Positions 2,640 through 17,645 are shown, counted from the stretch's first letter. The stretch is DNA of 28,933 nucleotides from a virus (IMGVR_UViG_3300042866_001514:1-28933); one strand, 5' to 3'. A program made the numbers and translations. Notes: generated by a model from the letters alone, not told the origin.

Positions 2640-2669
2640 TTGCAAAAGTGCAGGAAAGTAGGGTATCTT
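2640..2669 (+). promoter_or_regulatory. Promoter with embedded TGCAGGAAAGTAG element (P1)
   Basis: -35 TTGCAA (2640-2645), 18-bp spacer, -10 TATCTT (2664-2669). The spacer carries TGCAGGAAAGTAG at 2649-2661, shared with seven other promoters here. It drives the gene at 2716. Confidence 0.7.
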
Positions 2670-2715
2670 TTACTTATTGGAGCAAGGGGCTTCAATAACA
2701 CAAAGGGAGAAACAA

Positions 2716-2976
2716 ATGTCTTATGGAGTATCAATAACAGTTAAATACACAGAAACAACTTCAACAGGAACTATCACTAAAGAAACAAACTACAACTTCC
2801 ATGTTGATACCGCATCAGGTGCAAGTGACTTAATCTCACAGACCGCAAAGAATGCAAAGGAAATGAATGCAGTTGTTCAAGAAGTAAAGGTCACAGAAGA
2901 GAACCAAAACTCTTATGAGAACCCTTACCGCAAATTATCAGACGGCGAAATCTTGGACTTACTCCTAACCAAGTAA
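2716..2976 (+). CDS. Hypothetical small protein, single-gene unit
   Basis: 86 residues, not recognised. The start is ATG at 2716 with AAAGGGAG seven bases upstream; an earlier in-frame ATG at 2677 lacks an SD. The protein is Thr/Asn/Glu-rich with an N-terminal beta-like segment (YGVSITVKYTETTSTG) and a C-terminal helix (YRKLSDGEILDLLLTK). No Cys, membrane segment or catalytic motif is visible. It forms its own transcription unit with promoter P1 upstream and a strong terminator right after the stop. The same arrangement is repeated for the next two genes, which suggests independently dosed early or accessory products. Confidence 0.7.
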   Translation: MSYGVSITVKYTETTSTGTITKETNYNFHVDTASGASDLISQTAKNAKEMNAVVQEVKVTEENQNSYENPYRKLSDGEILDLLLTK

Positions 2977-2987
2977 CCGCAAGACTT

Positions 2988-3019
2988 AGCCCCCCTATCC
3001 AAGGGGGGCTTTTTCTTTT
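2988..3019 (+). terminator. Rho-independent terminator
   Basis: AGCCCCCCT, loop ATCCA, AGGGGGGCT, followed by TTTTTCTTTTT. It lies 12 bases after the stop of the 2716 gene. Confidence 0.85.
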
Positions 3020-3053
3020 TCAAGACACACCGCAAAAGCTTTTACTTTTGATC

Positions 3054-3083
3054 TTGACAAAGTGCAGGAAAGTAGGTTATTCT
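3054..3083 (+). promoter_or_regulatory. Promoter with embedded TGCAGGAAAGTAG element (P2)
   Basis: Perfect -35 TTGACA (3054-3059), 18-bp spacer, -10 TATTCT (3078-3083). The element occupies 3063-3075. It drives the gene at 3128. Confidence 0.75.
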
Positions 3084-3127
3084 TTTCCTAGTGAGGTCAA
3101 GGGGACTTCACAAAAGGGAGAAATAAA

Positions 3128-3400
3128 ATGACAACACTAGCAATGACCGCAACACTAGAAATCACTCCAGTTCAATTATCTTTAATTGAAATGGCGCTAC
3201 AAATTGAAATCGATACTTACGGCAACAAAACTAAAATGCAAATGACTAGAGAACCTGCTCTCCGTATCTTCTCTCGTCTTATTGGTGACCCTCTACATCT
3301 TCCAAAGTTTAGAGGACTACAGGGACGCAAGGACGCTCTTGCAATAGTTAAAGACTTCCTCATGCAACTTGAGGACGGCAGGGCTACCGTAGTGAAGTAG
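3128..3400 (+). CDS. Hypothetical small protein, single-gene unit
   Basis: 90 residues with a good SD (AAAGGGAG eight bases before ATG). Apparently mainly helical: an N-terminal hydrophobic/amphipathic part (LEITPVQLSLIEMALQIEID), a basic middle (KTKMQMTREPALRIFSRLIG) and RGLQGRKDALAIVKDFLMQL near the end. Not recognised. It has its own promoter (P2) and terminator, like the genes on either side. Confidence 0.7.
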   Translation: MTTLAMTATLEITPVQLSLIEMALQIEIDTYGNKTKMQMTREPALRIFSRLIGDPLHLPKFRGLQGRKDALAIVKDFLMQLEDGRATVVK

Positions 3401-3414
3401 CCAACTCCCTAGAG

Positions 3415-3446
3415 AACCCCCCTAGAAATAGGGGGGTTTTTCTTTT
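3415..3446 (+). terminator. Rho-independent terminator
   Basis: AACCCCCCTA, GAAA loop, TAGGGGGGTT and a run of T. It ends the 3128 gene. Confidence 0.85.
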
Positions 3447-3455
3447 GGCGTGTTG

Positions 3456-3484
3456 TTGCAAAATGCAGGAAGGTAGGTTATTAT
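3456..3484 (+). promoter_or_regulatory. Promoter with embedded TGCAGGAAGGTAG element (P3)
   Basis: -35 TTGCAA (3456-3461), 17-bp spacer, -10 TATTAT (3479-3484). The element at 3464-3476 differs from P1/P2 by one base (GGTAG for AGTAG). It drives the gene at 3529. Confidence 0.7.
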
Positions 3485-3528
3485 TTTCTTAGTGGGAAAC
3501 CAATTACCACTATAGGGAGAGAGACAAA

Positions 3529-3870
3529 ATGAAAACAGCAATTAAATTAACAACAGAGGGCAAGGCTTCTTTGATCGACTTAACCGCAGATAGCAACGAA
3601 CTTGTAACACTTCAAATGGCGGTAGGTGGATACATTGAAGCAAAAACTCTTGAAGGTGGTTACACACTTTTTATGAACGAAGAAGGAAAGTTAATGCAAC
3701 TTCCAATTAACGAAAGAGCAACCGAAATTTGGTTAGCCAACTTTCCTAACTTCCCAGATGTAATTGTGGGAGATGTAGTTATCGCAGGTGGAACAGATGA
3801 TGAAGGCGAGCAACTAGGTCTTGACTCTGACTATGCTGACCGCTTGTTGGAACTTTTTGCACAAGCATAA
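3529..3870 (+). CDS. DUF3846 family protein
   Basis: 113 residues, SD GGGAGAGA before ATG. The order 'LQMAVGGYIEAKTLEGGYTLF', 'MNEEGKLMQLPINERAT' and 'IVGDVVIAGG' matches the DUF3846 pattern as I know it (AVGGxIE, NEEGKLxxLPxN, IVGDVV), a small family frequent in phages and plasmids of actinobacteria and firmicutes. Molecular function is unknown. The family is about this length, so the protein looks complete. It is the third of three tandem single-gene units carrying the common promoter element. Confidence 0.8.
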   Translation: MKTAIKLTTEGKASLIDLTADSNELVTLQMAVGGYIEAKTLEGGYTLFMNEEGKLMQLPINERATEIWLANFPNFPDVIVGDVVIAGGTDDEGEQLGLDSDYADRLLELFAQA

Positions 3871-3884
3871 GAACTAAAGCAAAG

Positions 3885-3914
3885 AACCCCCTACCAAAAG
3901 GCAGGGGGTTTTTT
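3885..3914. terminator. Bidirectional terminator between convergent genes
   Basis: AACCCCCT..AGGGGGTT hairpin with T6 on the plus side and TTCTTT on the minus side. It sits between the DUF3846 gene (plus) and the peptidoglycan-binding gene (minus). Confidence 0.75.
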
Positions 3915-3925
3915 GTTGTCTTTAT

Positions 3926-4354
3926 TTAAGGAAGAACTCCAACGCTCTCACCTTGAAAAAGATAAGCCAAGACTTCTTCATCAAAGCAACCGCATTCATC
4001 AAGTCCCTTGGACTTTCTGAAAGCATTGATCGCTTCAACTGCTCCTTCTTCAAGACGACCAAACTTATCGTTCATTACTGAACTAAAGCCTAAATCACTC
4101 AACCGAAGTTGAACTGTCTTGACTGACTCGGAGTTGCCTTCATAAGCATTTACTTTTAATGCAGAAAGATAAACATACTTTTCAGGATTAGCTTGAAAAG
4201 TTGGGGCTTTCTTTTCTTTCTTTGGTTCTTCTTTTACTGCTACTGGTTTAACTTCTTCAACCTCTACTGGCTTGGACTCGAAAGAGAGCGCTTGCTCATT
4301 AGTTGAAGGTGCTACAGAACCAAGCAACGGCATAAGATTTTCTTGCTCGCTCAT
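3926..4354 (-). CDS. Peptidoglycan-binding protein (PGB_1-like), endolysin partner
   Basis: 142 residues from ATG at 4354 (MSEQENLMPLLG); a longer in-frame ORF would run back into the lysozyme gene and is unlikely. Residues about 30-60 are a Glu/Lys/Val/Pro linker. The C-terminal ~65 residues (SVKTVQLRLSDLGF, then DKFGRLEEGAVEAINAFRKS, KGLDECGCFDEEVLAYLF) match the three-helix PG_binding_1 repeat that binds cell-wall peptidoglycan. No signal peptide or catalytic domain. It starts four bases after the stop of the SLT-like gene, so the pair looks like an endolysin split into catalytic and binding subunits. Confidence 0.75.
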   Translation of the reverse strand: MSEQENLMPLLGSVAPSTNEQALSFESKPVEVEEVKPVAVKEEPKKEKKAPTFQANPEKYVYLSALKVNAYEGNSESVKTVQLRLSDLGFSSVMNDKFGRLEEGAVEAINAFRKSKGLDECGCFDEEVLAYLFQGESVGVLP

Positions 4355-4358
4355 AGTC

Positions 4359-4958
4359 TCACTTCTTTTCTGTGGGGAAATTGCCAAGCCATTGTTTGAA
4401 CTTAGCGTAGTGACTTCCACTACTACTAGTATAAGCGTCTTTACCTATGTGCCATGCTCTCCAAACCTCTCCACCTTGACTCATGTGGAAAGCAATTTGA
4501 GCATTTACAACAGGGTTAAACAAATCTGCATTATGGGAAAGATCAAACTTCTCTCGTCTATCCTCTCCAAGACTGTTTATCATGTTGATTTGGAAGATAC
4601 CGTAGGAGTTATCTCCTGTGAGAGTGTTTCCATTGAAGGCTAGGGGGCGACCATTACTTTCTTTCTTGGCTATTGCCCAAGCTTCTTTTAGTTCTTGACC
4701 TTCAAAGCCAACTGCTTCTAAAAGCCACACCAACTCAATGTCGGTAAGGTTGGTCTTGTTTTCAAAGTAGGACAGAGGCTTAGTCTTTTTGACTGGCTCT
4801 AACTGAACTACTGCTACTGCTTGCGTTGCCACTTGCTCTGTTGCGACAACCTCTTGGACTTTATTCTCTACCGCTACTGCTACTGCTCCTGATGATAGAA
4901 CTATCATGAGCGACAACAGCGCCAGCACCTTTTCAGGGGTCTTTAGAGTTGGGTTCAT
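4359..4958 (-). CDS. Secreted lytic transglycosylase/lysozyme-like endolysin subunit (SLT fold)
   Basis: 199 residues. The N-terminus (MNPTLKTPEK then VLALLSLMIVLSSGAVAVAV) is a signal peptide or signal-anchor, followed by a Val/Gln/Thr-rich linker. The C-terminal half carries an SLT/lysozyme-like domain: EAWAIAKKESNGRPLAFN with the catalytic-type Glu in 'AKKESNG', then GDNSYGIFQINM, and LFNPVVNAQIAFHMSQGG leading to VWRAW. 'GxxQIN' and 'NPxxNAxxA' are family hallmarks. It would cleave the glycan strand of peptidoglycan. The N-terminal signal suggests host-secretion (SAR or Sec) export. It is preceded by a structured leader (4970-5095) and promoter P6, and followed closely by the wall-binding gene. 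Confidence 0.8.
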   Translation of the reverse strand: MNPTLKTPEKVLALLSLMIVLSSGAVAVAVENKVQEVVATEQVATQAVAVVQLEPVKKTKPLSYFENKTNLTDIELVWLLEAVGFEGQELKEAWAIAKKESNGRPLAFNGNTLTGDNSYGIFQINMINSLGEDRREKFDLSHNADLFNPVVNAQIAFHMSQGGEVWRAWHIGKDAYTSSSGSHYAKFKQWLGNFPTEKK

Positions 4959-4969
4959 TTGGTTTTTCC

Positions 4970-5095
4970 TTTGTTAGGTTACGGGGACAAGGTTGCTAAC
5001 TGAGCCAACCCGACCATCGCCTCTTAGGGGATAGCCTTACTTCAAGTGTCTAATTCGTAAATCTCCTTGTGTCGTTAGTTCTTACTGTATAAACT
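4970..5095 (-). promoter_or_regulatory. Structured 5' leader of the lysozyme gene
   Basis: About 130 bases separate the P6 -10 box from the ATG at 4958. The minus-strand RNA can form GGCUAUC/GAUGGUC (with wobbles) and GGUU-G-GCU/AGC-AACC hairpins at 4990-5035, with G/C clusters around them. Long leaders are otherwise rare here. A riboswitch is conceivable because actinobacterial cell-wall hydrolase genes often have one, but I cannot match a known class. Confidence 0.35.
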
Positions 5096-5097
5096 CT

Positions 5098-5127
5098 AGC
5101 ATAAATGCAGGAAAGTCCACTCGTCAA
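5098..5127 (-). promoter_or_regulatory. Lysozyme promoter with reversed TGCAGGAAAGT element (P6)
   Basis: Minus strand -35 TTGACG (5122-5127), 18-bp spacer, -10 TATGCT (5098-5103). TGCAGGAAAGT is present at 5106-5116 on the plus strand, i.e. reversed relative to the promoter, unlike the other members of the set. Confidence 0.6.
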
Positions 5128-5134
5128 ATCCGCA

Positions 5135-5168
5135 TTAAGCGTGTCTTCAAACTATTTTTTACGCTTAA
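5135..5168. repeat. Perfect 8-bp inverted repeat TTAAGCGT/ACGCTTAA
   Basis: TTAAGCGT at 5135-5142 and ACGCTTAA at 5161-5168 with an 18-base AT-rich spacer, just upstream of promoter P6. It could be a dimeric-regulator operator. Confidence 0.4.
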
Positions 5169-5214
5169 AAACCCTGCTGAGCGTGCTAGATCTATAAAAA
5201 TCCCTAAATGCCCC

Positions 5215-5262
5215 AAAAAAAGTGCAGGAAGGACTGTTTTTAGCCCTTCCGCACACTTTTAG
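5215..5262 (-). terminator. Rho-independent terminator of the small-gene operon
   Basis: On the minus strand AGTG..GGAAGG pairs with CCTTCC..CACT across a small internal loop, followed by seven T. It lies downstream of the gene ending at 5277 and insulates the lysozyme promoter. Confidence 0.65.
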
Positions 5263-5276
5263 AGACTTGCGAGCGC

Positions 5277-5432
5277 CTAGCGTCTTTCCCTTGCTGAAAG
5301 GGTTGCAAGAGCGATAGAACTTAGTCCAAGAGACAAAACAAGACTGTCTTCTCCTTGTAGTCCAGCAATTATTGAGCCTACGGCAAGTATCATAGAGATT
5401 ACCGCAGTCCAAACAACTCTTTTTAGATCCAT
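5277..5432 (-). CDS. Small two-helix membrane protein, holin-like
   Basis: 51 residues: MDLKRVVWTAVISMILAVG, SIIAGLQGEDS, then LVLSLGLSSIALATLSARERR. Two hydrophobic segments with a short polar turn and a basic tail fit a small holin or similar membrane protein. SD-like AGGT lies before TAAAAA and ATG. The overlapping longer frame in this place is Cys/Arg-rich with no sensible composition and is rejected. The gene is last in its operon, ahead of the terminator and the lysozyme unit, a position consistent with lysis. The holin role is inference from topology and location. Confidence 0.65.
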   Translation of the reverse strand: MDLKRVVWTAVISMILAVGSIIAGLQGEDSLVLSLGLSSIALATLSARERR

Positions 5433-5435
5433 TTT

Positions 5436-5666
5436 TTACCTCTTTCTTTTTTTATTAGAAGGTTTCTTTTTTGGCTCTGCTTTTTTTCCAGTAGGACTCG
5501 TCCTACCAACTAGCCTTGCAGAAGGGTCTCTAGCCTCTACCCCTTTTGAATAGACGGCTTTTCTTGCAGTTCGGTAGGCAACCCCTAACTCTTTAGCGAC
5601 TGCCTCCATAGATAGACCGCTCTTATAAAGCTTTACTGCTTCGTCTTGAATACTAGCGACTTTCAA
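5436..5666 (-). CDS. Small HTH protein with highly basic tail
   Basis: 76 residues. TTG start at 5666 with AAGGAGAG six bases upstream, overlapping the preceding gene. Residues 5-40 form an HTH (AVKLYKSGLSMEAVAKELG followed by VAYRTARKAVYSKG), similar to the C-terminal HTH of the 1621-2118 protein. The last 25 residues are almost all Lys/Arg/Pro/Ser (KKAEPKKKPSNKKRKR), a non-specific DNA-binding tail. It may be a regulator or nucleoid-like protein and is a candidate to bind the repeated promoter element, with no direct evidence. Confidence 0.65.
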   Translation of the reverse strand: MKVASIQDEAVKLYKSGLSMEAVAKELGVAYRTARKAVYSKGVEARDPSARLVGRTSPTGKKAEPKKKPSNKKRKR

Positions 5667-5838
5667 CTTTATCTCTCCTTAGTCTAGAGATTTCTCCTTC
5701 AAGAAATCTTATCTTTTCATTTTTCTTGTTTATTACTCGGTGCAACTGACCTTGCGCCCTGATACCAACAACCATAACAAAGCAAGAGCCAGCGAGCGCA
5801 ATAATTATTGCGAGCATTGTTCCTGTATCTAAAACCAT
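5653..5838 (-). CDS. Single-pass membrane protein with coiled-coil tail
   Basis: 61 residues. An N-terminal transmembrane helix (MLAIIIALAGSCFVMVVGI) is followed by a charged heptad-like region (RVINKKNEKIRFLEGEISRL then RRDK). This resembles small phage membrane proteins such as spanin- or holin-accessory types, but sequence alone cannot decide. The SD AGGAGG overlaps the stop codon of the upstream gene. The downstream TTG start overlaps its last codons. Confidence 0.65.
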   Translation of the reverse strand: MVLDTGTMLAIIIALAGSCFVMVVGIRAQGQLHRVINKKNEKIRFLEGEISRLRRDKVESR

Positions 5839-5841
5839 TTT

Positions 5842-6009
5842 CTACCTCCTTACGCTTCTAGGGTCTACCTGTTTTGTCCCCTGACAAAATCCACACTCTT
5901 CCGCATGGGCATAACCTAAAGCCCCAACTAGATTAGATACTCCGCAAGACCTCATCAACAGACAGGCGAACTCTTGGTCGGTAAGTCCTGCTTGTAAATC
6001 ATCAGCCAT
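5842..6009 (-). CDS. Hypothetical protein with C-terminal CxxC
   Basis: 55 residues from ATG at 6009 (MADDLQAGLTDQEFACLLMR); AAGAAGAGG upstream is an SD. An upstream in-frame TTG has no SD. The motif EECGFCQGT near the C-terminus plus two earlier Cys could bind metal. The start overlaps the stop of the upstream gene by TGATG-type packing, and the stop is embedded in the SD of the next gene. Confidence 0.6.
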   Translation of the reverse strand: MADDLQAGLTDQEFACLLMRSCGVSNLVGALGYAHAEECGFCQGTKQVDPRSVRR

Positions 6010-6172
6010 TTTTAGCCTCTTCTTTTTCAAATTGAATTGCTTTATCTAAATCTATGTCGCAATAAGGGATACCCTTGTAAATTGTTATAGGTATCTCACT
6101 TGTATCTGCCCAGCAAACTTCGCAAGACTCCAACCCCGTGTATGGACTTGGGTGTTTAACTTTTTTACTCAT
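6002..6172 (-). CDS. Hypothetical 56-residue protein with CxxC
   Basis: Begins MSKKVKHPSPYTGLESCEVC and ends YCDIDLDKAIQFEKEEAKNG. CEVC plus a later Cys in PYCD suggests a small metal-binding fold. Start and stop overlap neighbouring genes (ATGA upstream, TGATG downstream), which strongly supports the frame. No homologue is recognised. Confidence 0.65.
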   Translation of the reverse strand: MSKKVKHPSPYTGLESCEVCWADTSEIPITIYKGIPYCDIDLDKAIQFEKEEAKNG

Positions 6173-6384
6173 ACCAAAATCCCTTCTAATCCTTCGTCAT
6201 TTCCAAAGTCGCTTGGACTTATTAAATCCAGCCACTCCCTAAATAAATAAACCAAACCTTCCTGCTCATTATTCCTTTTCTCAACAAGTCCCTCGTATAA
6301 GAAATAGGCTTGATCTTCTACTAAATCTTCATAGGTTTCATAAGCTTCAATAAGCCGTAACTCTTCTAGCGTATAGGTTGGCAT
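6169..6384 (-). CDS. Hypothetical acidic protein
   Basis: 71 residues, acidic and aromatic (LEELRLIEAYETYEDLVEDQ, then AYFLYEGLVEKRNN, LFREWLDLISPSDFG). Not recognised. The start uses the GGGGTAAAAATG junction, where the upstream gene's TAA lies between the G-tract SD and the ATG. The stop overlaps the next start (ATGA). Confidence 0.65.
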   Translation of the reverse strand: MPTYTLEELRLIEAYETYEDLVEDQAYFLYEGLVEKRNNEQEGLVYLFREWLDLISPSDFGNDEGLEGILV

Positions 6385-6386
6385 TT

Positions 6387-6620
6387 TTACCCCTGCTCTT
6401 TAGTAAAGAGAAACGCAAAACCCGGACCATTACCTTCGGGGTCTTGGGATAAACATAAGCCTTCGCCATTATCGAACTCTAAGAAAGGAATTGGCTCATG
6501 GGCTGAAACTTCCCACCCCAACTCTTCTGCTTCTTCGGCAGTAGCATTTCTAACTTTTATGAGAGTCGCCCCTACGAGCGACCCCCACTCCTTCTCTAAG
6601 TATTTCGATAGGTCGCTCAT
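6387..6620 (-). CDS. Hypothetical protein
   Basis: 77 residues from ATG at 6620 (MSDLSKYLEKEWGSLVG), which overlaps the upstream stop. An ORF extension to 6674 lies inside the upstream gene and is disregarded. The protein has a beta-rich centre (ATLIKVRNATAEEAEELGW, PIPFLEFDNGEGLCLSQD) and ends FLFTKEQG, giving the Gly-TAA end of the shared junction. Not recognised; cytoplasmic by composition. Confidence 0.65.
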   Translation of the reverse strand: MSDLSKYLEKEWGSLVGATLIKVRNATAEEAEELGWEVSAHEPIPFLEFDNGEGLCLSQDPEGNGPGFAFLFTKEQG

Positions 6621-6805
6621 GGGTATAACAAATCTAGGCAAAATTGGTTCATCTGCTCTGTTGGAACTTTGCACTCATCAGGTGTTGTTGCGTCATTAGC
6701 CCAAGCAAACAAACCTAGCAAGATAACGCCAACGGCAATTCGGCGTCTAATAAACTTTGCTTCTGTTTTCACTTTGTCCCTGCTTTCTGTGACTCCCTTA
6801 GCCAC
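6617..6805 (-). CDS. Small membrane protein
   Basis: Up to 62 residues. The hydrophobic helix RRRIAVGVILLGLFAWAND near the middle would cross the membrane; the tail has two Cys (DECKVPTEQMNQFCLD), perhaps an exported disulphide. The annotated start is GTG at 6805 without an SD. A GTG at 6772 preceded by AGGGA five bases upstream would give a 51-residue product and may be the true start. Two copies of the operator element lie immediately upstream (6821-6850). Confidence 0.6.
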   Translation of the reverse strand: MAKGVTESRDKVKTEAKFIRRRIAVGVILLGLFAWANDATTPDECKVPTEQMNQFCLDLLYP

Positions 6806-6812
6806 TAGTAGA

Positions 6813-6850
6813 ACTTTACACTACTTTCCTGCTTTTTTCTACTTTCCTGC
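6813..6850 (-). promoter_or_regulatory. Two tandem GCAGGAAAGTAG elements with a -10-like box
   Basis: GCAGGAAAGTAG occurs on the minus strand at 6839-6850 and again at 6821-6832, 18 bp apart, followed by TAAAGT (6813-6818) as a weak -10. The first copy encodes the final Ala-Gly-Lys-stop of the 6839 gene. It probably drives or controls the genes from 6805 downwards. Confidence 0.5.
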
Positions 6851-7039
6851 TTTTTCCTTCTCTTTGGCGTGTCGCTTGGCTTCCTCTAGCAACTCCTCGA
6901 AACTTCTAAAGTCCTGCTCGAAAGAACTCCAACTCTGTGCCAAAACTTTCTCTTTTCTTTTTGAGGAACTAATACGGCGTGATTTTTTAGTAAGTCTCTT
7001 TACAGTTCCGTAAATTGCACTATCAGGCAAACCCCACAT
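6839..7039 (-). CDS. Hypothetical basic coiled-coil protein
   Basis: 66 residues, SD GGGG five bases before ATG. The N-terminus MWGLPDSAIYGTVKRLTKKS is followed by a very basic Ser/Arg/Lys stretch and a helical, charged C-terminus (EELLEEAKRHAKEKEKAGK). It could bind nucleic acid. Its last codons and stop are formed by the GCAGGAAAGTAG element. It is expressed from the promoter at 7151-7179 through a long folded leader. Confidence 0.6.
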   Translation of the reverse strand: MWGLPDSAIYGTVKRLTKKSRRISSSKRKEKVLAQSWSSFEQDFRSFEELLEEAKRHAKEKEKAGK

Positions 7040-7064
7040 TTTTTACCCCTTCCCTTAGTTAAGA

Positions 7065-7141
7065 CTTAGTAGGGAGTCGTATTGTTTCCGCCCCTTGCAA
7101 GTTCTAGGCGTTCAGGTGACCAGCGACTTCCCCCTACTAAG
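7065..7141 (-). promoter_or_regulatory. Structured leader RNA, closed by a ~15-bp stem
   Basis: CTTAGTAGGG-AGTCG (7065-7079) pairs with CGACT-TCCCCCTACTAAG (7124-7141), enclosing about 44 bases that include smaller complementary parts (CGCC/GGCG). It lies between the promoter at 7151 and the ATG at 7039, in the 5' leader. I cannot match it to a known riboswitch. Confidence 0.45.
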
Positions 7142-7150
7142 TTAAAAGAA

Positions 7151-7179
7151 ATAATACACGACTTCCCTGACATTTTCAA
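7151..7179 (-). promoter_or_regulatory. Promoter with variant element (P7)
   Basis: -35 TTGAAA (7174-7179), 17-bp spacer, -10 TATTAT (7151-7156). The spacer reads ATGTCAGGGAAGTCGTG, a divergent copy of the common element. It drives the minus-strand operon starting at 7039. Confidence 0.65.
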
Positions 7180-7274
7180 ATTGACCGCACACGACACGCC
7201 AAGCCCCAAGTTCCCACACTTTTGTTTTTAGATAGAATAAAATTAAGACACAAGCCAAGAGAAAGGGAACTCAA

Positions 7275-7397
7275 ATGGCAAGAGTAAAAGCAAGAGAAGT
7301 AATGATTTGGATAAATTGCTATCGGTGTGGAGAGCAATTCCAAATTAGACAGATAGATTATTACCGCAACCTAATTTGTAATGGTTGCTTAAAATGA
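7275..7397 (+). CDS. Zinc-ribbon mini-protein
   Basis: 40 residues: MARVKAREVMIWINCYRCGE, then QFQIRQIDYYRNLICNGCLK. Two CxxC pairs (CYRC and CNGC) separated by about 20 residues form a typical zinc ribbon. SD AAAGGGA before ATG. A TAGAAT box is about 45 bases upstream. The stop overlaps the start of a further tiny ORF (ATGA). It probably binds nucleic acid or protein; partner unknown. Confidence 0.6.
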   Translation: MARVKAREVMIWINCYRCGEQFQIRQIDYYRNLICNGCLK

Positions 7398-7474
7398 ATT
7401 GCCAAACCGCAAAATGGCTTTATGAGATTTACGGATACGGAAAAGCTCATGAGTGCGAAAAGTGTTCAAATTGA
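7394..7474 (+). CDS. Possible 26-residue Cys-rich peptide
   Basis: ATG overlaps the upstream stop. The peptide MNCQTAKWLYEIYGYGKAHE ends CEKCSN; Cys-x-x-Cys and a His could bind zinc. No separate SD. Its end overlaps the -35 box of P4. Translational coupling makes it plausible, but it may be chance. Confidence 0.35.
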   Translation: MNCQTAKWLYEIYGYGKAHECEKCSN

Positions 7475-7499
7475 GAAATGCAGGAAAGTAGTGTATCGT
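7471..7499 (+). promoter_or_regulatory. Promoter with embedded TGCAGGAAAGTAG element (P4)
   Basis: -35 TTGAGA (7471-7476), 17-bp spacer, -10 TATCGT (7494-7499). An exact copy of the element lies at 7479-7491. It drives the ArdA-like gene. Confidence 0.65.
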
Positions 7500-7550
7500 T
7501 AAGCCAGTTGGTTAATCATAGGGAATAACCACACTAACAAAGGGAAACAA

Positions 7551-7883
7551 ATGCCAGTTGCAAGTCGTGAAGTAATTGAGGAACAAATAGAAAACGCAGA
7601 TAGAAGTCTTGCAGTTCTTTCTATCTTTGCTATGAACTACCACCTAGACCTTTCCAAATGGGAAAGCTTTGCAGATGACGCAGAGAATAATTATCTCGGT
7701 AACTATGGAAGTCGTAGAACCTTTGCAGAGAATTATGCAGACCGCATTGGGATACTAAACTCAGGGGGCAACGGACAAATAGAAACTCTTGCTCGTTATT
7801 TTAACTATGACCTTTGGGTGCATAACCTTTTCCAAGACGGAACAGTTTGGGAACATGAAGGTCATTACTTCCAAGCTCTTTAA
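7551..7883 (+). CDS. ArdA-like antirestriction protein
   Basis: 110 residues, SD AAAGGGAAA. The region AENNYLGNYGSRRTFAENYA, then DRIGILN, ending ARYFNYDLWVHNLFQDGTVW and a final GHYF, follows the C-terminal pattern of ArdA proteins (x-Y-x-x-EDFAEEYAEE-x-G-L and YFDYEAFARDL). ArdA is an acidic DNA mimic that blocks type I restriction enzymes. Here the protein is shorter than the usual ~165 residues and lacks the N-terminal domain, but it is acidic overall. A compact antirestriction protein fits an early-expressed single-gene unit with its own terminator. Confidence 0.65.
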   Translation: MPVASREVIEEQIENADRSLAVLSIFAMNYHLDLSKWESFADDAENNYLGNYGSRRTFAENYADRIGILNSGGNGQIETLARYFNYDLWVHNLFQDGTVWEHEGHYFQAL

Positions 7884-7896
7884 GAAGTGAGAGTAG

Positions 7897-7926
7897 CCCC
7901 CCAAGAAATTGGGGGGTTATTTTTAT
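7897..7926 (+). terminator. Rho-independent terminator
   Basis: CCCCCCAA, GAAA, TTGGGGGG then TTATTTTTATT; it ends the ArdA-like gene. Confidence 0.8.
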
Positions 7927-8492
7927 TCTCGGTATTGAGTTAAGAGGTAAAAAGGCTCGGCAGTTTTATTATCAAACTTTGAAGATACGGCGAGCGCAGT
8001 TTTAATTCCTGATCTTGCATTAGTTAAAGTTCTTTTCTTTCCTTCTGATAAAGCATTAAGAACACCTAAAGCATAAGCTGAACCTGAACCTACCGCATAA
8101 GCCCCGACAGTATCGTGACACCAAGAGAAGTCTTCGCCTATCTCATAAACAGTTCCATTAACTAAAACAATTATTTGGCTTTCGTGTTCCCCGTCCTTTG
8201 AGTATGAGGATTCCTCAAAACACTTCTTAAGTTCAGGGATAAAGACGGCAGTAATAAACTTATCTAGTTTTACCCCTAGAGTCGAAACAGTGCAGACAGG
8301 TGGCTTAAAGACATGAGCCAACAAGTTAATAGCCCGCACATCACCAGCTACTCCAATTATGTAATTTCCATTCTTAAAAACTTTCCCATTATCTTTCGGC
8401 AGAATGTAACTACGCCCGTCCTCTTCTGAAACCCTAGAGTCATAGCCAATAACTGACCAGCCTTCACCCTGAACCGCAGCTATTGTTGTCAC
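7923..8492 (-). CDS. HslV/20S proteasome beta-like Ntn hydrolase
   Basis: 189 residues. After Met removal the chain begins TTIAAVQGEGWSVIGYDSR: Thr1 as N-terminal nucleophile and Asp17 exactly where HslV and proteasome beta subunits have theirs. A Lys in 'DNGKVFKNG' (about 36) could be the Lys33 equivalent, shifted by a short insertion. NYIIGVAGD matches the substrate-site Gly, and AYAVGSGSAYALGVLNAL matches the conserved Ser/Gly helix start. It should be a self-compartmentalising threonine protease or an Ntn-type amidohydrolase. No unfoldase (HslU/ClpX) is adjacent; the AAA+ protein at 17646 is MoxR-type. Start at 8492, stop close to the ArdA terminator. Confidence 0.75.
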   Translation of the reverse strand: MTTIAAVQGEGWSVIGYDSRVSEEDGRSYILPKDNGKVFKNGNYIIGVAGDVRAINLLAHVFKPPVCTVSTLGVKLDKFITAVFIPELKKCFEESSYSKDGEHESQIIVLVNGTVYEIGEDFSWCHDTVGAYAVGSGSAYALGVLNALSEGKKRTLTNARSGIKTALAVSSKFDNKTAEPFYLLTQYRE

Positions 8493-8504
8493 TTCAATCC
8501 TTAC

Positions 8505-8750
8505 CTAGTAGTTAAAATTATCCCATAATTCATCACGCAAGGCGTATTCATACCTATCGGCAACCATAGAGTTTTTACCCCCTATGTCCTCACTTTCAAT
8601 AAGTTTATCTAGTGAAAGAACCGCAGTGTATTCTTCGTCTTCAAACATGATTACTAACTTTGTATCTCCCTCGGCAGGATCATCAACTATAGCCACGACA
8701 TACGGAGCGTTAGTTCCATTAGAGTGATAAACCTTTTGCACAATTTCCAT
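8505..8750 (-). CDS. Hypothetical acidic protein upstream of the Ntn hydrolase
   Basis: 81 residues, not recognised. Beta-rich start (MEIVQKVYHSNGTNAPYVVA), acidic middle (DDPAEGDTKLVIMFEDEEYT), helical end (RYEYALRDELWDNFNY). It ends 13 bases before the Ntn hydrolase ATG, so the two are probably co-transcribed. A TTATTC/TATTCT box about 15 bases upstream of ATG and an AATCAGGAAAGCTGG sequence near 8770 suggest its own promoter. Confidence 0.6.
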   Translation of the reverse strand: MEIVQKVYHSNGTNAPYVVAIVDDPAEGDTKLVIMFEDEEYTAVLSLDKLIESEDIGGKNSMVADRYEYALRDELWDNFNY

Positions 8751-8795
8751 ACTCTAAAGAATAACCGCATCCAGCTTTCCTGATTTTTACCCCCC

Positions 8796-8827
8796 AAAAA
8801 GAAACCCCCCACTTTTCGGTGAGGGGC
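8796..8827 (-). terminator. Rho-independent terminator
   Basis: Minus-strand CCCCTCAC, CGAAAA, GTGGGGGG (one U-G wobble) followed by TTTCTTTTT. It ends the 8841 gene. Confidence 0.75.
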
Positions 8828-8840
8828 TTAGAGAGTTTTA

Positions 8841-9077
8841 TTATGCTTCTCCCCATAGTTCTTCTAGGGTGTCGGGTTCATAGGGGTCGCCCATTTCTTC
8901 CTTCTCCTTTTCGAAAGTCCAAGCGTGTCCGCACTCGCACTTTACTTCTGAGGATACATTTCCCCAGTCGTCTGTCATAAAGTCTTCTTCCCAAGCCTTA
9001 CCGCACTCATAGCACTCTACTTCTAGAGTTACATCTTCGGCGTATATACCTGAGCCCTTCATACTTCCTTCGCTCAT
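8841..9077 (-). CDS. Zinc-ribbon protein
   Basis: 78 residues. Two Cys pairs, VECYECGKAWEEDF and VKCECGHAWTFE, form a zinc ribbon with acidic flanks (MGDPYEPDTLEELWGEA). SD GGGAGAAAG before ATG. It stands alone between promoter P8 and a strong terminator. It probably binds nucleic acid or protein; nothing more specific can be said. Confidence 0.65.
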   Translation of the reverse strand: MSEGSMKGSGIYAEDVTLEVECYECGKAWEEDFMTDDWGNVSSEVKCECGHAWTFEKEKEEMGDPYEPDTLEELWGEA

Positions 9078-9107
9078 TTTCTTTCTCCCTTCTGAGCAAG
9101 TGTTTTA

Positions 9108-9136
9108 ATTCTACACTACCTACCTGACATTTTCAA
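9108..9136 (-). promoter_or_regulatory. Promoter with variant element (P8)
   Basis: -35 TTGAAA (9131-9136), 17-bp spacer with TCAGGTAGGTAGTG, -10 TAGAAT (9108-9113). It drives the zinc-ribbon gene at 9077. Confidence 0.65.
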
Positions 9137-9142
9137 TAGGGA

Positions 9143-9260
9143 CACTTCACCCCTGCTAGGGAGGCAAGGGTAAAGTGCGATAGGCATTGGAATACCTATC
9201 TCATCAGGGAGCGATAGGAAGGGAATCCGCGCTACTACCTGGACTCCTATTCTAGCACCT
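9143..9260 (-). ncRNA. Structured non-coding segment, function unknown
   Basis: Consecutive hairpins between two genes. CACTTCACCCCTGC (9143-9156) with GCAAGGGTAAAGTG (9164-9177) is fully paired only in the minus-strand RNA (two G-U pairs replace C-A mismatches). GATAGG (9179-9184) pairs with CCTATC (9195-9200), and ATAGGA/TCCTAT lie around 9214-9250. It could be a 3' UTR or terminator, or a separate RNA. It has no tRNA cloverleaf. Confidence 0.4.
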
Positions 9261-9291
9261 ACGATTTACCGCAAAAAACTTTTTACCCCTC

Positions 9292-9597
9292 TTAACCATT
9301 AAAACAATCAGGACACTCTAACTCTCTAACCGCACCAGCTACTTCACTATTAACTTTCCCTCTTCCGTAACAAGTCTCGCAATTAGGGTCACCTTCATCT
9401 AAGACTCCTATGTGATTACAAACCGCTTCTACATCCCACCCGTAGTGATGCTTCATTAACGCCTTTGCACTTCTAAGACAAGCGTCTTCATACACTTCGC
9501 CCTTTTCTACATCTTCTTCTCTTACCGCAACACTTACGATCATAGAGAAATAATCTCCTATAAAGATTACATTCTTCGGTGTAATTAAATTATCCAT
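9292..9597 (-). CDS. Protein with C-terminal DnaJ-like zinc motif
   Basis: 101 residues from ATG at 9597 (AAGG seven bases upstream); ATG at 9603 is two codons earlier but has poor SD spacing. The C-terminus has CNHIGVLDEGDPNCETCYGR, then GKV, and ends LECPDCFNG: CxxC-x-G-x-G and CxxC resemble DnaJ zinc-finger repeats. The N-terminal half is an unrecognised domain with TPKNVIFIGDYFSMIVSVAV. It may be a small zinc-binding adaptor. Confidence 0.6.
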   Translation of the reverse strand: MDNLITPKNVIFIGDYFSMIVSVAVREEDVEKGEVYEDACLRSAKALMKHHYGWDVEAVCNHIGVLDEGDPNCETCYGRGKVNSEVAGAVRELECPDCFNG

Positions 9598-9631
9598 AGA
9601 CATACCTTACCGCTTTTTACCCCCAACAAAC

Positions 9632-9661
9632 AAGAAACCCCCGCCATTTCTGACGGGGGCT
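9632..9661 (-). terminator. Rho-independent terminator
   Basis: Minus-strand GCCCCCGTCA..GGCGGGGGTTTCTTG hairpin, directly after the gene ending at 9674. Confidence 0.75.
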
Positions 9662-9673
9662 TCCTTTAATTTA

Positions 9674-9898
9674 TTACGCTACCGATACCCATTTAACGGC
9701 AGTGCTTAATACATTGTCGTAATCGCCTGACATACTTTCATCAAGATAAGCATTTATTTCTTCCTGAGAAACTCCTGCCTTTCTAAGTGCGTTAGCGACT
9801 CGTCCCATAATTGCAACGGCATTTCCGTCTTCGCCGACAAGTGCTACTTCAATCTCCGCATACTTTGGTGCATCAATCCCTATAAATTCTCTAGCCAT
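9674..9898 (-). CDS. Small conserved-looking phage protein
   Basis: 74 residues. The pattern VALVGEDGNAVAIMGRVANAL, AGVSQEEINAYLDESMSGDY and NVLSTAVKWVSV resembles a widespread hypothetical family in phages and plasmids ('DGNAFxIMGxVxxALRxAGV...SGDYDxLLxTxMxW'). Function unknown. SD AGGAGGG ten bases before ATG. A TTGAAA-16-TATAAT promoter overlaps the end of the upstream gene at about 9930-9958, and a terminator follows. Confidence 0.65.
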   Translation of the reverse strand: MAREFIGIDAPKYAEIEVALVGEDGNAVAIMGRVANALRKAGVSQEEINAYLDESMSGDYDNVLSTAVKWVSVA

Positions 9899-9928
9899 TT
9901 TTCCCTCCTTTCGTCCCTAGTGTCTTTA

Positions 9929-10096
9929 TTATACTCCCGATAACTCTAATTTCAATTCATTTACAATCTTTTCTGCTTCGTGTGCCGTTAAGTATCTAGC
10001 CATAGCCCTGATAACTACAATCGGATTAGCTCCTGCTTCCAATACTTCGCCGATCACTTTTCTATTAAACTCATACTTATCCAATTCTTTTTCCAT
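9929..10096 (-). CDS. Hypothetical 55-residue protein
   Basis: MEKELDKYEFNRKVIGEVLE, then AGANPIVVIRAMARYLTAHE, ending KIVNELKLELSGV. Helical, no Cys. The start uses the GGGGTAAAAATG junction with the upstream gene's TAA inside it. Its 3' end contains the TTGAAA..TATAAT promoter of the next gene. Not recognised; supported by SD, composition and tight packing. Confidence 0.65.
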   Translation of the reverse strand: MEKELDKYEFNRKVIGEVLEAGANPIVVIRAMARYLTAHEAEKIVNELKLELSGV

Positions 10097-10098
10097 TT

Positions 10099-10491
10099 TT
10101 ACCCCTCCTCTTCTTCATCTTTAATAAGGGTGAATGAGAAACCTGCGCCAGTAGGCTCGTCGTGGCTTGACCGTGTTGCAGTAAGGACTGTGCCTTCGTG
10201 CTTAAACCGTAAATTAAAGTCGCCATTTATAGTTAGCGTGTTTAATACTTTGTCGAAAGAAACTATGGCTTCTCCACTTCTGTGTTGCCAACCCATATTT
10301 CTGCCAGTAATTCTTACGGTGTTCCAATCAACGCCTACTGCCTTGCGCCAGTTATTCATCATCTCTTTGAACAACCATTTAGAATCTTCCCAGCAATCGA
10401 AACAATAATCGCTAGGCGTATCGTCTTCGTTAGTGCAAGTGCAATCGCTAGTCATTTCTAGCGTAATCTTTTCTTCGGTGTTTATGCTCAT
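10099..10491 (-). CDS. Hypothetical protein with N-terminal Cys cluster
   Basis: 130 residues. N-terminal TSDCTCTNEDDTPSDYCFDC could coordinate metal. The rest is beta-rich with Trp and charged residues (VGVDWNTVRITGRNMGWQHR, LNTLTINGDFNLRFKHEG). It ends LIKDEEEEG followed by TAA in the shared junction. SD AGGGAAAGG before ATG. The upstream TATGATAAAAT sequence (about 10528-10538) is a plausible -10 region. Not recognised. Confidence 0.6.
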   Translation of the reverse strand: MSINTEEKITLEMTSDCTCTNEDDTPSDYCFDCWEDSKWLFKEMMNNWRKAVGVDWNTVRITGRNMGWQHRSGEAIVSFDKVLNTLTINGDFNLRFKHEGTVLTATRSSHDEPTGAGFSFTLIKDEEEEG

Positions 10492-10590
10492 AGTTTTACC
10501 TTTCCCTAGTTTTTATGAACAAGATAATTTTATCATACCTTTATGCAAATAGGGCTCTTTAACTCCGTATTCTTTTTTCCCAGCGTCCAG

Positions 10591-10809
10591 CTAAGAAACA
10601 ATTACATCATCTAGCCAATAGCCCGCATACTTTTCTCCGTCTTTCATTTCATCATTGAAACTTTCCGCAAACAAGTCTCCCTCTTCGCTATCTATCCAGT
10701 TTTTACCCTCGGCAAGAGTATCGAAAGAGATATGAGCCCAAACAATTTCTACATCATCATCTTCATTTCTAAGTATTGCTATCGCTTTATACGGCTTATC
10801 TATGATCAT
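10591..10809 (-). CDS. Hypothetical acidic protein
   Basis: 72 residues: MIIDKPYKAIAILRNEDDDV, IVWAHISFDTLAEGKNWIDS, KYAGYWLDDVIVS. Acidic alpha/beta mini-protein, not recognised. Starts in the GGGGTAAAAATG junction following the gene ending at 10812. A CTGGGAAAAAAGAATACGG sequence, a relative of the dispersed GCCCGGAAA element, lies just downstream at about 10565-10583. Confidence 0.6.
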   Translation of the reverse strand: MIIDKPYKAIAILRNEDDDVEIVWAHISFDTLAEGKNWIDSEEGDLFAESFNDEMKDGEKYAGYWLDDVIVS

Positions 10810-10811
10810 TT

Positions 10812-11117
10812 TTACCCCCCGTAGTCCTCATCTGTTCCATACCCTGCGCTTGCAAGAGTATCTGCGTCCGCTTCTACATCACTCATCTGTGGGATACCTT
10901 CGTCCGTTACCCAATAACCTGTTCCATCTGCGTTCAGAGTATTTTCCTCAATAGTCCAATCCGCTTCGTCCCAGCGAACTTCGTCCGTCATAATCTTGCC
11001 GATTTCATCTATGAACCTCTGCATAACCGCTTCGGCTTCTTCCATACTGCTCGCCTTGATTTCTACTATTGAGATAGTTAGGTCTCGCCCCGTTGAGTAA
11101 TACTTTTCTGCGCTCAT
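10812..11117 (-). CDS. Hypothetical protein
   Basis: 101 residues from ATG at 11117 (MSAEKYYSTGRDLTISIVEI); this start forms a TGATG overlap with the upstream gene, so an in-frame extension to 11150 is rejected. KASSMEEAEAVMQRFIDEIG is helical, then acidic DEVRWDEADWTIEENTL and a Gly/Asp-rich end DYGG with TAA. The 'tissue' of such proteins (short beta strand plus 'EAxxxA' helix) resembles that of the genes at 15039 and 13802. Not recognised. Confidence 0.65.
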   Translation of the reverse strand: MSAEKYYSTGRDLTISIVEIKASSMEEAEAVMQRFIDEIGKIMTDEVRWDEADWTIEENTLNADGTGYWVTDEGIPQMSDVEADADTLASAGYGTDEDYGG

Positions 11118-11227
11118 CACGCTACCTCGCAATCGTGTCCGTATGCCCACTCGCTTGCTTCTATTTCATCTAATAAATCAAACACACGCTTACACTCAAC
11201 GCATCTTGCCTTAGTGCTAATTTTCAT
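11117..11227 (-). CDS. 36-residue Cys/His mini-protein
   Basis: MKISTKARCVECKRVFDLLD followed by EIEASEWAYGHDCEVA. CVEC together with HDC forms a CxxC..HxC zinc-binding set. SD GGGAAAGAG about nine bases before ATG. Its stop overlaps the next start (TGATG). Too short for automatic calling but well supported by context. Confidence 0.6.
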   Translation of the reverse strand: MKISTKARCVECKRVFDLLDEIEASEWAYGHDCEVA

Positions 11228-11271
11228 TTTTATCTCTTTCCCTAGCCGTTAGCCCCTTGCTAACAATTCTT

Positions 11272-11300
11272 ATTATACACGACCTTCCTGCAATTTCATA
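11272..11300 (-). promoter_or_regulatory. Promoter with variant element (P9)
   Basis: -10 TATAAT (11272-11277), 16-17 bp spacer containing TTGCAGGAAGGTCGTG, -35 TATGAA/ATGAAA. It drives the genes from 11227 downwards. Confidence 0.6.
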
Positions 11301-11353
11301 CGATCCCCTGCCGTTTCTTTTTTACCCCTCGCCTTTTTACCTTGCCGTAGAAA

Positions 11354-11382
11354 GCAAAAACCCCCTGCTTTCGCAAGGGGCT
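11354..11382 (-). terminator. Rho-independent terminator
   Basis: Minus-strand CCCCTTGC, GAAA, GCAGGGGG then TTTTTGCTTT. It ends the 11402 gene. Confidence 0.8.
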
Positions 11383-11401
11383 TCTGCCGACTAGGGATTG
11401 T

Positions 11402-11836
11402 CTATTTGGTAAGAACAACTGTGAAAGTGCTTTCCACCTTAGTCTTAGCAAAGACTTCAGGGAAATCCAATTCCAACTTTTTCTTATCTACATCTGTGCG
11501 ATTACGCTCGGAGATTGTAATTCTCGTTGCGCCGTTTAGTGTTCCCTTTTTAGCAACGCCGACCCATTTCTCGGTGCTACCAACTAACACTTTTTCCCAA
11601 CCCATTAGCAAATAAATTGCTTCTGTGGCTTCTTGCTTTTGCTTTTCCAAATCAGTAATCGCTTCACGCAATCTAACTAATTCGGCAACTGTGGCTTCTG
11701 CCTTTTTCTTGTTCTTATCAAGCGAAATAACTTCACTTGTTGCTACAACTGTTGTTTCATCAACAACTGTCTTGATTGTTTTTCCAGCAACCTTTTTAGT
11801 GGTGCTAGTGGTGGTGCTTTTGATAGTGCTACCCAT
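11402..11836 (-). CDS. Phage protein with coiled coil and conserved-looking C-terminus
   Basis: 144 residues. A Thr/Lys/Ser/Val-rich N-terminus (MGSTIKSTTTSTTKKVAGKT) is followed by a coiled coil (KKAEATVAELVRLREAITDL, EKQKQEATEAIYLLMG). The C-terminus, RNRTDVDKKKLELDFPEVFA then KTKVESTFTVVL, resembles a phage family with 'D(T)KKLKEDHPEL..KTSTYRRF' often near recombination genes; that link is tentative. Own promoter (P5), leader with AAATGACGAAATG, and terminator: a single-gene unit. Confidence 0.6.
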   Translation of the reverse strand: MGSTIKSTTTSTTKKVAGKTIKTVVDETTVVATSEVISLDKNKKKAEATVAELVRLREAITDLEKQKQEATEAIYLLMGWEKVLVGSTEKWVGVAKKGTLNGATRITISERNRTDVDKKKLELDFPEVFAKTKVESTFTVVLTK

Positions 11837-11891
11837 TTGGATACTTCCTATTCATTTCGTCATTTCCTAGGCGTTGTTGCCTAGTAAAAGA

Positions 11892-11921
11892 ATAATAACC
11901 TACTTTCCTGCCTTTCGTCAA
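11892..11921 (-). promoter_or_regulatory. Promoter with embedded GGCAGGAAAGTAG element (P5)
   Basis: -35 TTGACG (11916-11921), 18-bp spacer, -10 TATTAT (11892-11897); GCAGGAAAGTAG at 11900-11911. It drives the gene at 11836. Confidence 0.75.
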
Positions 11922-12950: not shown

Positions 12951-13247
12951 CTATTCAATTCCAAGTTCTTGTCGGATAGTGTCTACCGCTTCCATCCACG
13001 CTGCTGCTCGGACTTCATTGAGGACATCATCGTTCACGAAAAGTCTGAGAAACTTCAACCATTGTTCGTTTGTAATCTCAACTCCAAGATCAGACTCTAC
13101 ATCTGACTTACACCAGACGCCCCAATGAACGAGTTCATTTTCGTCAAACTCTTGCGAAATAAACTCCGCAACTTGACCAGCCGTAAGGAACTCTGCATCT
13201 TCTTCTAATTCATCATCATCTATCTCTATGTCATTTTGATTTGTCAT
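12951..13247 (-). CDS. Hypothetical acidic protein with ITNEQW motif
   Basis: 98 residues, very acidic N-terminus (IEIDDDELEEDAEFLTAGQV), then HWGVWCKSDVESDLGVEITN and EQWLKFLRLFVNDDVLNEVR. The ITNEQW segment is similar to LTDEQW in the 12152 gene, suggesting distant paralogy or a shared fold. The start overlaps the stop of the HTH gene (ATGA), so the two are co-translated. Confidence 0.65.
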   Translation of the reverse strand: MTNQNDIEIDDDELEEDAEFLTAGQVAEFISQEFDENELVHWGVWCKSDVESDLGVEITNEQWLKFLRLFVNDDVLNEVRAAAWMEAVDTIRQELGIE

Positions 13248-13756
13248 TTTATATCACCCCCTAAAAAACCTTGATTCTTTTTATGGCGAAAGTTCTTTAT
13301 ATTGAAAGTAGTGTGACCCGTAGCCTCTGCTATTTCACGGGCAGTTATTTTATTGTCGATAGCAAGGATTATTAGTTCTTGCTTTCTTTTTTTCAGGTCG
13401 GAATATTGTTTAGAAATAATTTCCAACTCGGTGAGAATTTTTACCGCAGTAGTGTCTACTGTTACTGACTTTGGTCTGCCCACTCTAAACTTCTGTGTAG
13501 ATTTCACCTCACCTTTTTGAGTGAAACCAATAGAGTAACTCTGCTTTACTCTTTTATAGCGATTAGTTATTGCTTGACTGCTTTGATAACCTAGAGCAAG
13601 AGCAAGTTCTACTGCCGAAACTCCTCGCTCAATCTCATCTACAATCAGTCTGTCAAACTCTAAAACTTCAACCGCAGCTCTATTACCGCCCCACGCTTTC
13701 TTTTGGTCTGGTTTTAGTTCTAGCAATCTTTCGATTACCTTCTCGTCTGCTTTCAT
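13244..13756 (-). CDS. DNA-binding protein with two HTH-like segments
   Basis: 170 residues. First HTH about residues 35-65: IVDEIERGVSAVELALALGY then QSSQAITNRYKRVK. Second near the C-terminus: LILAIDNKITAREIAEATGH followed by TTFNIKNFRHKKN. Between them GRPKSVTVDTTAVKIL and a coiled helix (ISKQYSDLKKRKQE). It parallels the two-HTH layout of 1621-2118. It is a plausible transcriptional regulator for this genome, for example of the promoter-embedded element, but that is inference. A TATAAT box and AAATGACGAAAGG leader precede the ATG. Confidence 0.65.
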   Translation of the reverse strand: MKADEKVIERLLELKPDQKKAWGGNRAAVEVLEFDRLIVDEIERGVSAVELALALGYQSSQAITNRYKRVKQSYSIGFTQKGEVKSTQKFRVGRPKSVTVDTTAVKILTELEIISKQYSDLKKRKQELIILAIDNKITAREIAEATGHTTFNIKNFRHKKNQGFLGGDIK

Positions 13757-17405: not shown

Positions 17406-17645
17406 GTCTTTCGTCCTTTTCTAATCGTGTGTCCTTACAAAACCTATCATACCATTTTGGGGGGGATAATCAAACTTAGGGCTTGGCGTGGGGTGGGGAA
17501 CTTGGGAAGTGATTTTAGATCCTGGAACCAAAGCTTTAACCCTGCCCTGCGTTATTTAGTTTTATTTACCCCTAGTTATTTAGAGAGTGGGAGTAGAGAT
17601 ACCTAACTCCCACCCTCAAAGCCAACACTAGGTTCTAGGGAAAAC
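17406..17645 (-). promoter_or_regulatory. Leader/spacer between the ATPase and VWA genes
   Basis: A 240-base gap. It contains a hairpin GTGGGAGT/ACTCCCAC (17587-17613) and CTAGGTT..AACCTAG, both just after the ATPase stop, and GGTATGATAGG about 45 bases before the VWA ATG followed by an AAAGGACGAAAGAC leader. A fresh promoter for the VWA gene after partial termination is likely. Confidence 0.4.

Follow-up and report, generated by a model that had tools for sequence, protein, structure and literature searches.

We propose that a short asymmetric DNA element, which recurs between the -35 and -10 boxes of promoters in an uncultured phage of Actinobacteria, is probably an operator, and that a helix-turn-helix (HTH) protein of 76 aa, encoded at 5436-5666 on the minus strand, binds it there and represses about ten transcription units jointly. 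The window, i.e. the whole stretch of DNA analysed, is an entire IMG/VR virus record, IMGVR_UViG_3300042866_001514 (28,933 bases); a longer record (G001, 134,380 bases) includes it, nearly identical, at offset 70,575. The closest annotated relatives of its AAA protein come from Actinomycetia phage DSL-LC01 and from Microbacterium and Gordonia phages, and three WhiB proteins are encoded by G001; the window therefore belongs to a phage of Actinobacteria. The genome of DSL-LC01 is complete and was obtained by metagenomic assembly of lake DNA (PMC10611076).

Copies, geometry and consensus of the element

The original prediction placed a 13-bp element in at least eight promoters, with coordinates that refer to the -35 box on the plus strand and to the outer edge of the -10 box on the minus strand. 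All eight are present at these places, with 13-mers starting at 2649, 3063, 3464 and 7479 (plus) and at 7159, 9116, 11280 and 11900 (minus). Three further copies, a tandem pair at 6821/6839 (minus) and an inverted copy at 5106, bring the total to 11 copies in 10 promoters, all of them within 2.6-11.9 kb; the right part of the window is free of the element.

Searched as a 13-mer with 3 mismatches, the element barely exceeds chance (17 matches versus 10.4 +/- 3.3). When the 134-kb G001 was scanned with a matrix, as the original prediction had suggested, the strong sites fell in promoters: the ten best hits (at least 15.8 bits) all lie in the counterpart of window 2.6-11.9 kb, a span of 9.3 kb, and in four Markov-shuffled versions of G001 the top scores shown included 0, 1, 0 and 2 hits of this strength. 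Low-scoring hits (8-14 bits) were rejected, being at or below the shuffle level and mostly within genes.

In a count made independent of any assumed spacing, TANNNT stands exactly 2 nt after the core of the element in 27 of 47 non-redundant matrix hits (expected: about 0.8), and in 23 of the 47 a TTG begins 8 or 9 nt ahead of the core. In the window's clade, the element is followed by TANNNT at a distance of 2 nt and preceded by TTG at 8-9 nt. In G001 together with its ten nearest relatives, core-N2-TANNNT matches 75 times; one further match, in G022, resembles chance, and the reversed core, used as a control, matched once in the 1.2 Mb covered. In bacterial genomes (about 85,000; 257 Gb) the promoter pattern has one match, in a Pseudomonas contig, which looks like chance, as do single matches in G060, G054 and G057.

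The letters shared by copies in both orientations are approximately AAAgTGCAGGAARGT, with no palindrome. The final AG of the 13-mer is not kept outside the window's clade, so that the element first described does exist, yet its conserved form is nearer to these letters than to the 13-mer then given. We found no published description of it in literature that was partially covered.

Co-occurrence of the element and the HTH protein

Phages with the element usually encode HTH 5436 as well. Viral contigs scanned with the HTH alignment alone yielded 80 loci, with GC of 39-55% and some at only about 60% identity. When 6-mers were counted de novo in the TTG-N16-18-TANNNT spacers of these HTH-selected loci, TGCAGG/CAGGAA emerged in most of them. 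At least one core-bearing spacer is found in 75 of the 80 loci and at least two in 73, altogether 397 spacers (339 forward and 58 inverted). The mean for 200 permuted cores is 31.6, and those permutations that scored best are the true core moved by some letters. Relatives lacking the HTH gene stay at background, with 10 core-bearing spacers in 502 kb. Further, when the genes of the window were compared by tblastn with 20 relatives and DSL-LC01, HTH 5436 turned up wherever an element-bearing genome extends over the region, and none of the element-less relatives G011-G018 yielded a homologue.

General relatedness is not enough to explain this association, because divergence of the AAA protein is similar in both groups (55-64% in HTH-less relatives, 55-59% in distant HTH-bearing genomes), with scores tending somewhat lower in the HTH-less ones. 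The reciprocal test is weaker. Records selected by the element contain the HTH gene in 13 of 22 and 30 of 40 cases, most of the latter 30 being already known as HTH records; none of the element-selected records was seen to carry multiple copies, span the whole region and lack the HTH gene.

The HTH gene and its promoter

HTH 5436 is predicted to contain a trihelical HTH. The recognition helix GVAYRTARKA is invariant across members (VAYRTARKA) except for one A/S exchange. A conserved RDPSxRxxGRTxP segment comes next, and several members also have a basic tail. In the AlphaFold model the HTH spans residues ~6-40, with pLDDT in this block up to 93, and the tail is of low confidence. Searches of PHROGs, Pfam and NCBIfam returned generic or below-cut-off matches only. 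IS21-type IstA matched the HTH at E = 0.009, and Foldseek gave generic HTH matches only (E > 0.2).

The gene is the seventh of eight close-packed minus-strand genes running from 6805 to 5277. Gene spacing and a terminator fold suggest that these small genes form one operon (5277-6805), ended by an intrinsic terminator at ~5222-5255. This putative operon follows the sole two-element promoter of the window (6813-6851, minus), whose elements at 6821-6833 and 6839-6851 lie 18 bp apart and whose -10 box is TAAAGT. The tandem pair is retained in G019, G006, G007, G008, G004 and G005, and in weaker form in G022. Of 34 non-redundant loci, 32 have an element promoter on the strand of the HTH gene and 58-1770 bp upstream of it, the shortest distances being 58 bp in L164 and 80 bp in L159; of the two exceptions, L129 is cut off and L199 has a diverged element. 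Because the promoter of the HTH operon carries two tandem copies, negative autoregulation is predicted.

The terminator stem of the HTH operon spells the element in some phages only, and an inverted pair occurs in G009 at 78416/78436. The copy at 5222 is this stem; it was not counted, because L140 and L173 retain the stem but not the word.

Orientation and register in relatives

The fixed promoter position of the original prediction holds within the window's clade and breaks down in its relatives. In distant phages, CAGG is 13, 12, 11 or 8 nt away from the -10 box. Even at orthologous promoters the orientation changes: upstream of gene 6839, members of the window's clade have a forward element, and L150, L155, L156, L163, L179 and L202 carry it inverted. 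An inverted element at the promoter of a gene for an SLT/lysozyme-like protein is shared by the window's clade and several distant relatives, with a perfect AGTGCAGGAAGGTT in L141. Such inversion and shifting are compatible with a protein that occludes the spacer, and they make a feature read by RNA polymerase itself unlikely.

A proposed model of joint repression

We suggest the following course of events. The HTH protein would occupy the element between the -35 and -10 boxes of strong sigmaA-type promoters; given the asymmetry of the site, it probably binds as a monomer. Once bound, it would block RNA polymerase, and some ten small transcription units in the non-structural part of the genome would be repressed together. 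Its own operon, with the tandem operator, would be among the targets, which closes a negative feedback loop. The presumed result is an early burst of expression, followed by shut-off as the protein accumulates. That a regulator site is positioned to block polymerase at many short units had been anticipated by the original prediction, and the data support such positioning. Repression as the outcome is inferred from this position, from strong-looking -35 and -10 boxes, from normal spacers of 17-18 bp and from the indifference to orientation.

Several points weigh against this model. Firstly, binding and repression are deduced from sequence, and the predicted sign of the effect follows from position. 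Secondly, the strict distance of 2 nt to the -10 box in the window's clade is not required by a simple repressor. Thirdly, nine of the 22 element-selected records lack the HTH gene (all of them 5-19 kb except G021, cut off near the sites), as do ten more in the 40-record set, several of which are short or have a single match resembling chance. The HTH search was, moreover, biased towards HTHs of the same specificity, because conserved recognition-helix peptides were required. Lineage L197-L201 keeps the HTH and has a diverged element (TGTCAGrGGT). Finally, because the HTH gene is co-inherited with its neighbourhood, a conserved neighbour could be the binder, although none of the other conserved genes beside it resembles a DNA-binding protein.

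Alternative explanations

The HTH protein may bind the element and yet activate or appropriate RNA polymerase, docking by sigma region 2/3 at weak promoters, in the manner of T4 MotA or the MerR-type spacer binders. The strict 2-nt distance would suit such docking, some -35 boxes are poor (TAGAAA at 6836, ATGAAA at 11295), and co-occurrence with the HTH gene is silent on sign. Most -35 and -10 boxes are nevertheless near consensus and separated by 17-18-bp spacers, and a docking activator is not expected to tolerate inverted or shifted elements, even at orthologous promoters. We therefore regard activation as unlikely.

Less probable still is an extended promoter consensus that RNA polymerase, of the host or modified by the phage, would recognise itself, with no separate regulator; the original prediction had named a spacer feature for a phage-modified polymerase as its second option. 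The fixed register with the -10 box in the window's clade agrees with it, as does DSL-LC01, where more than 30 near-identical promoters have another block next to the -10 box. It fares badly with the inverted copies, with offsets of 8-13 nt to the -10 box and with the tandem copies at 6821/6839. A phage sigma factor was rejected, since no Sigma70_r4 (sigma70 region 4) domain was found in G001, and the pattern is essentially absent from bacterial genomes.

About equally improbable is a different phage protein as the binder, either one of the other HTH proteins (1621-2118, 13244-13756) or the product of a small conserved gene beside the HTH gene. HTH 1621 occurs in all element-bearing genomes checked, and several small genes beside HTH 5436 are conserved with it. 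These neighbours, however, have no recognisable DNA-binding fold. HTH 13244 was rejected as it is confined to the phage of the window, and HTH 1621 because it is also present in the element-less G013, G014 and G017 and in DSL-LC01. In DSL-LC01 a gene of similar length sits between terminase and portal; from this position and from the occurrence in element-less phages, a link of HTH 1621 to packaging is more likely. Among the three candidate regulators originally named, then, HTH 5436 alone matches the phyletic pattern and is the most likely binder, with the element (AAAGTGCAGGAAGGTAG) as its predicted target.

Lastly, the phage might have copied a host transcription factor site into many promoters, as these are host-type and host regulators can be exploited by phages, but this is very improbable, and a host regulon was rejected, given the single pattern match in 257 Gb of bacterial genomes and sites that track a phage gene.

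Promoters and genes of the window

On the plus strand, four single-gene promoters contain the forward element: TTGCAA-N18-TATCTT at 2640-2669 (element 2649-2661, gene 2716-2976), TTGACA-N18-TATTCT at 3054-3083 (element 3063-3075, gene 3128-3400), TTGCAA-N17-TATTAT at 3456-3484 (element 3464-3476, gene 3529-3870) and TTGAGA-N17-TATCGT at 7471-7499 (element 7479-7491, gene 7551-7883). Four more are on the minus strand. TTGAAA-N17-TATTAT at 7151-7179 (element 7159-7171) precedes gene 6839-7039 of the xxxLPDS family, and TTGAAA-N17-TAGAAT at 9108-9136 (element 9116-9128) precedes a zinc-ribbon-like gene at 8841-9077. ATGAAA-N17-TATAAT at 11272-11300 (element 11280-11292) is followed by a Cys-rich open reading frame of 36 aa, read by eye, at 11117-11227, and TTGACG-N18-TATTAT at 11892-11921 (element 11900-11912) by gene 11402-11836. 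The promoter with the inverted element, TTGACG-N18-TATGCT at 5098-5127 (minus), serves the SLT/lysozyme-like gene at 4359-4958; its element at 5106-5118 reads TGCAGGAAAGTCC on the plus strand, and the inversion is conserved in relatives.

The small-gene region also encodes an HslV/proteasome-like protein and a pyrimidine dimer DNA glycosylase (7923-8492 and 22174-22611). An AAA ATPase and a VWA-domain protein, encoded as a pair at 15624-18704, are kept in all these phages; in DSL-LC01 they are annotated as AAA ATPase and cobalamin biosynthesis protein.

Leader hairpins and other sequence signals

Directly after the -10 box of the first promoter, the predicted mRNA would begin with a 5'-terminal hairpin (2671-2699, plus: TTATTGGAGC aaggg GCTTCAATAA). 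Further leader hairpins are found at 3093-3120, 3492-3516, 7510-7530 and 11248-11268. They begin 4-9 nt past the -10 box, and their stem sequence varies while pairing is kept, frequently with an AAGGG loop. Hairpins occur in 12 of 33 non-redundant leaders of the window's clade (3.1 in shuffles) and in 37 of 118 leaders across all loci (12.6 in shuffles). Because 23% of element-less TTG/TANNNT matches also have a hairpin, the excess over this control is modest outside the window's clade. Protection of mRNA or a second regulatory signal are possible roles.

The leader of the SLT/lysozyme-like gene (4959-5105, minus) is almost unchanged across relatives (ACGAATTAGACACTTGAAGTAAGGCTATCCCC...) and could be a structured regulatory RNA; a riboswitch was rejected, as there is no Rfam match. 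In the element-free right part, TATGATAG recurs upstream of minus-strand genes (15235, 17451, 19249 and 20964, minus), possibly as a second promoter class. Directly before start codons we find AAATGACGAAAGG / AACGACGAAAGGACA (13781, 15210, 19196, 20934 and 22035, minus), resembling a start-associated sequence and common to the window's phage, L150-L191 and DSL-LC01. Repeats of ACTAGTAACTTA fill part of a very AT-rich intergenic stretch (2480-2600) ahead of the first element promoter.

Lifestyle and possible significance

No tyrosine integrase was found in the six records searched, which are incomplete, and a short serine resolvase is present in all six. About 85,000 bacterial genomes, searched for a prophage source, contain no homologue of HTH 5436. 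On these grounds we lean towards a timing role in lytic growth over one in immunity. The host may be, at a guess from composition, a low-GC freshwater bacterium.

A broader idea can be put forward tentatively. In large, widespread actinobacterial phages that lack a recognisable integrase, a minimal monomeric single-HTH protein and an asymmetric, orientation-free spacer operator might form a built-in timer, the protein being produced from the very promoters it closes, so that all small host-takeover cassettes fire once and are shut together; sisters of the DSL-LC01 type would run the same circuit with another word and a diverged HTH. The protein (76 aa) and its predicted 15-bp site represent a candidate protein-operator pair in actinobacterial phages that are uncultured and form a large group. 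If our assumptions are true, then multi-promoter operator regulons of the P1/L5 kind exist in phages without a visible lysogeny module, and the sites mark which small unknown genes share one regulon. Matched HTH/operator pairs across lineages would also present a natural data set on how the specificity of small HTHs changes.

Comparison with known systems

The HTH is of the same trihelical kind as those of IS21 transposase IstA, Tn3/gamma-delta resolvase and Cbp1. The resemblance is at the level of fold only, and HTH 5436 has no catalytic domain.

The start-associated sequences of Cluster K mycobacteriophages (SAS/ESAS) are likewise an asymmetric 13-bp repeat, present in 11-19 copies and restricted to non-structural genes (PMC3203893). 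The SAS (GGGATAGGAGCCC), however, lies directly upstream of start codons (PMC3203893), whereas the element described here lies between the -35 and -10 boxes, ahead of the leader with its hairpin.

The stoperators of L5, to which the element was originally likened, correspond to it in logic, not in membership. The mycobacteriophages L5 and TipsytheTRex share with our case an asymmetric 13-mer (more than 20 copies there, 11 in the window), probably monomeric binding and an actinobacterial phage (PMC9283540). L5 sites lose function when reversed, and many are away from promoters, in intergenic spaces where they stop elongation (PMC9283540); here, reversed sites are conserved and the strong sites are in promoters. 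The L5 repressor has 183 aa and two DNA-binding domains (PMC9283540), whereas our candidate has 76 aa and one HTH. The multicopy asymmetric site of about 13 bp is thus common to both systems, and oriented non-promoter sites with a two-domain repressor of ~180 aa belong to stoperators.

Of the complete phage records found, DSL-LC01 (OQ999401) is the nearest. Its small-gene region contains over 30 near-identical promoters that share a conserved block immediately upstream of the -10 box, together with an HTH homologue (44.7% over 47 aa). The differences are in the word, GATTCTAAAGATG, a frequent inverted repeat around the -10 box, the lack of a -35 box and a diverged recognition helix. Promoters at 22.6-43.3 kb of this genome (L123) read GATTCTAAAGATG-T-TATAATaGAATC, with TATAAT as the -10 box (GATTCTAAAGATG-T-TATAAT).

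With its presumed repression, the element system would work like the dispersed operator regulon of P1 C1. P1 operators are 17 bp long (ATTGCTCTAATAAATTT), and P1 is temperate with anti- and corepressors (PMC8546580). In our case the six records yielded no tyrosine integrase, the candidate protein has 76 aa, and the sites lie within the -35/-10 spacer in either orientation. What the two have in common is the architecture: the autoregulated C1 silences promoters, its own included, through 22 dispersed asymmetric operators (PMC8546580), and in the window the gene of the candidate regulator likewise stands behind an element promoter.

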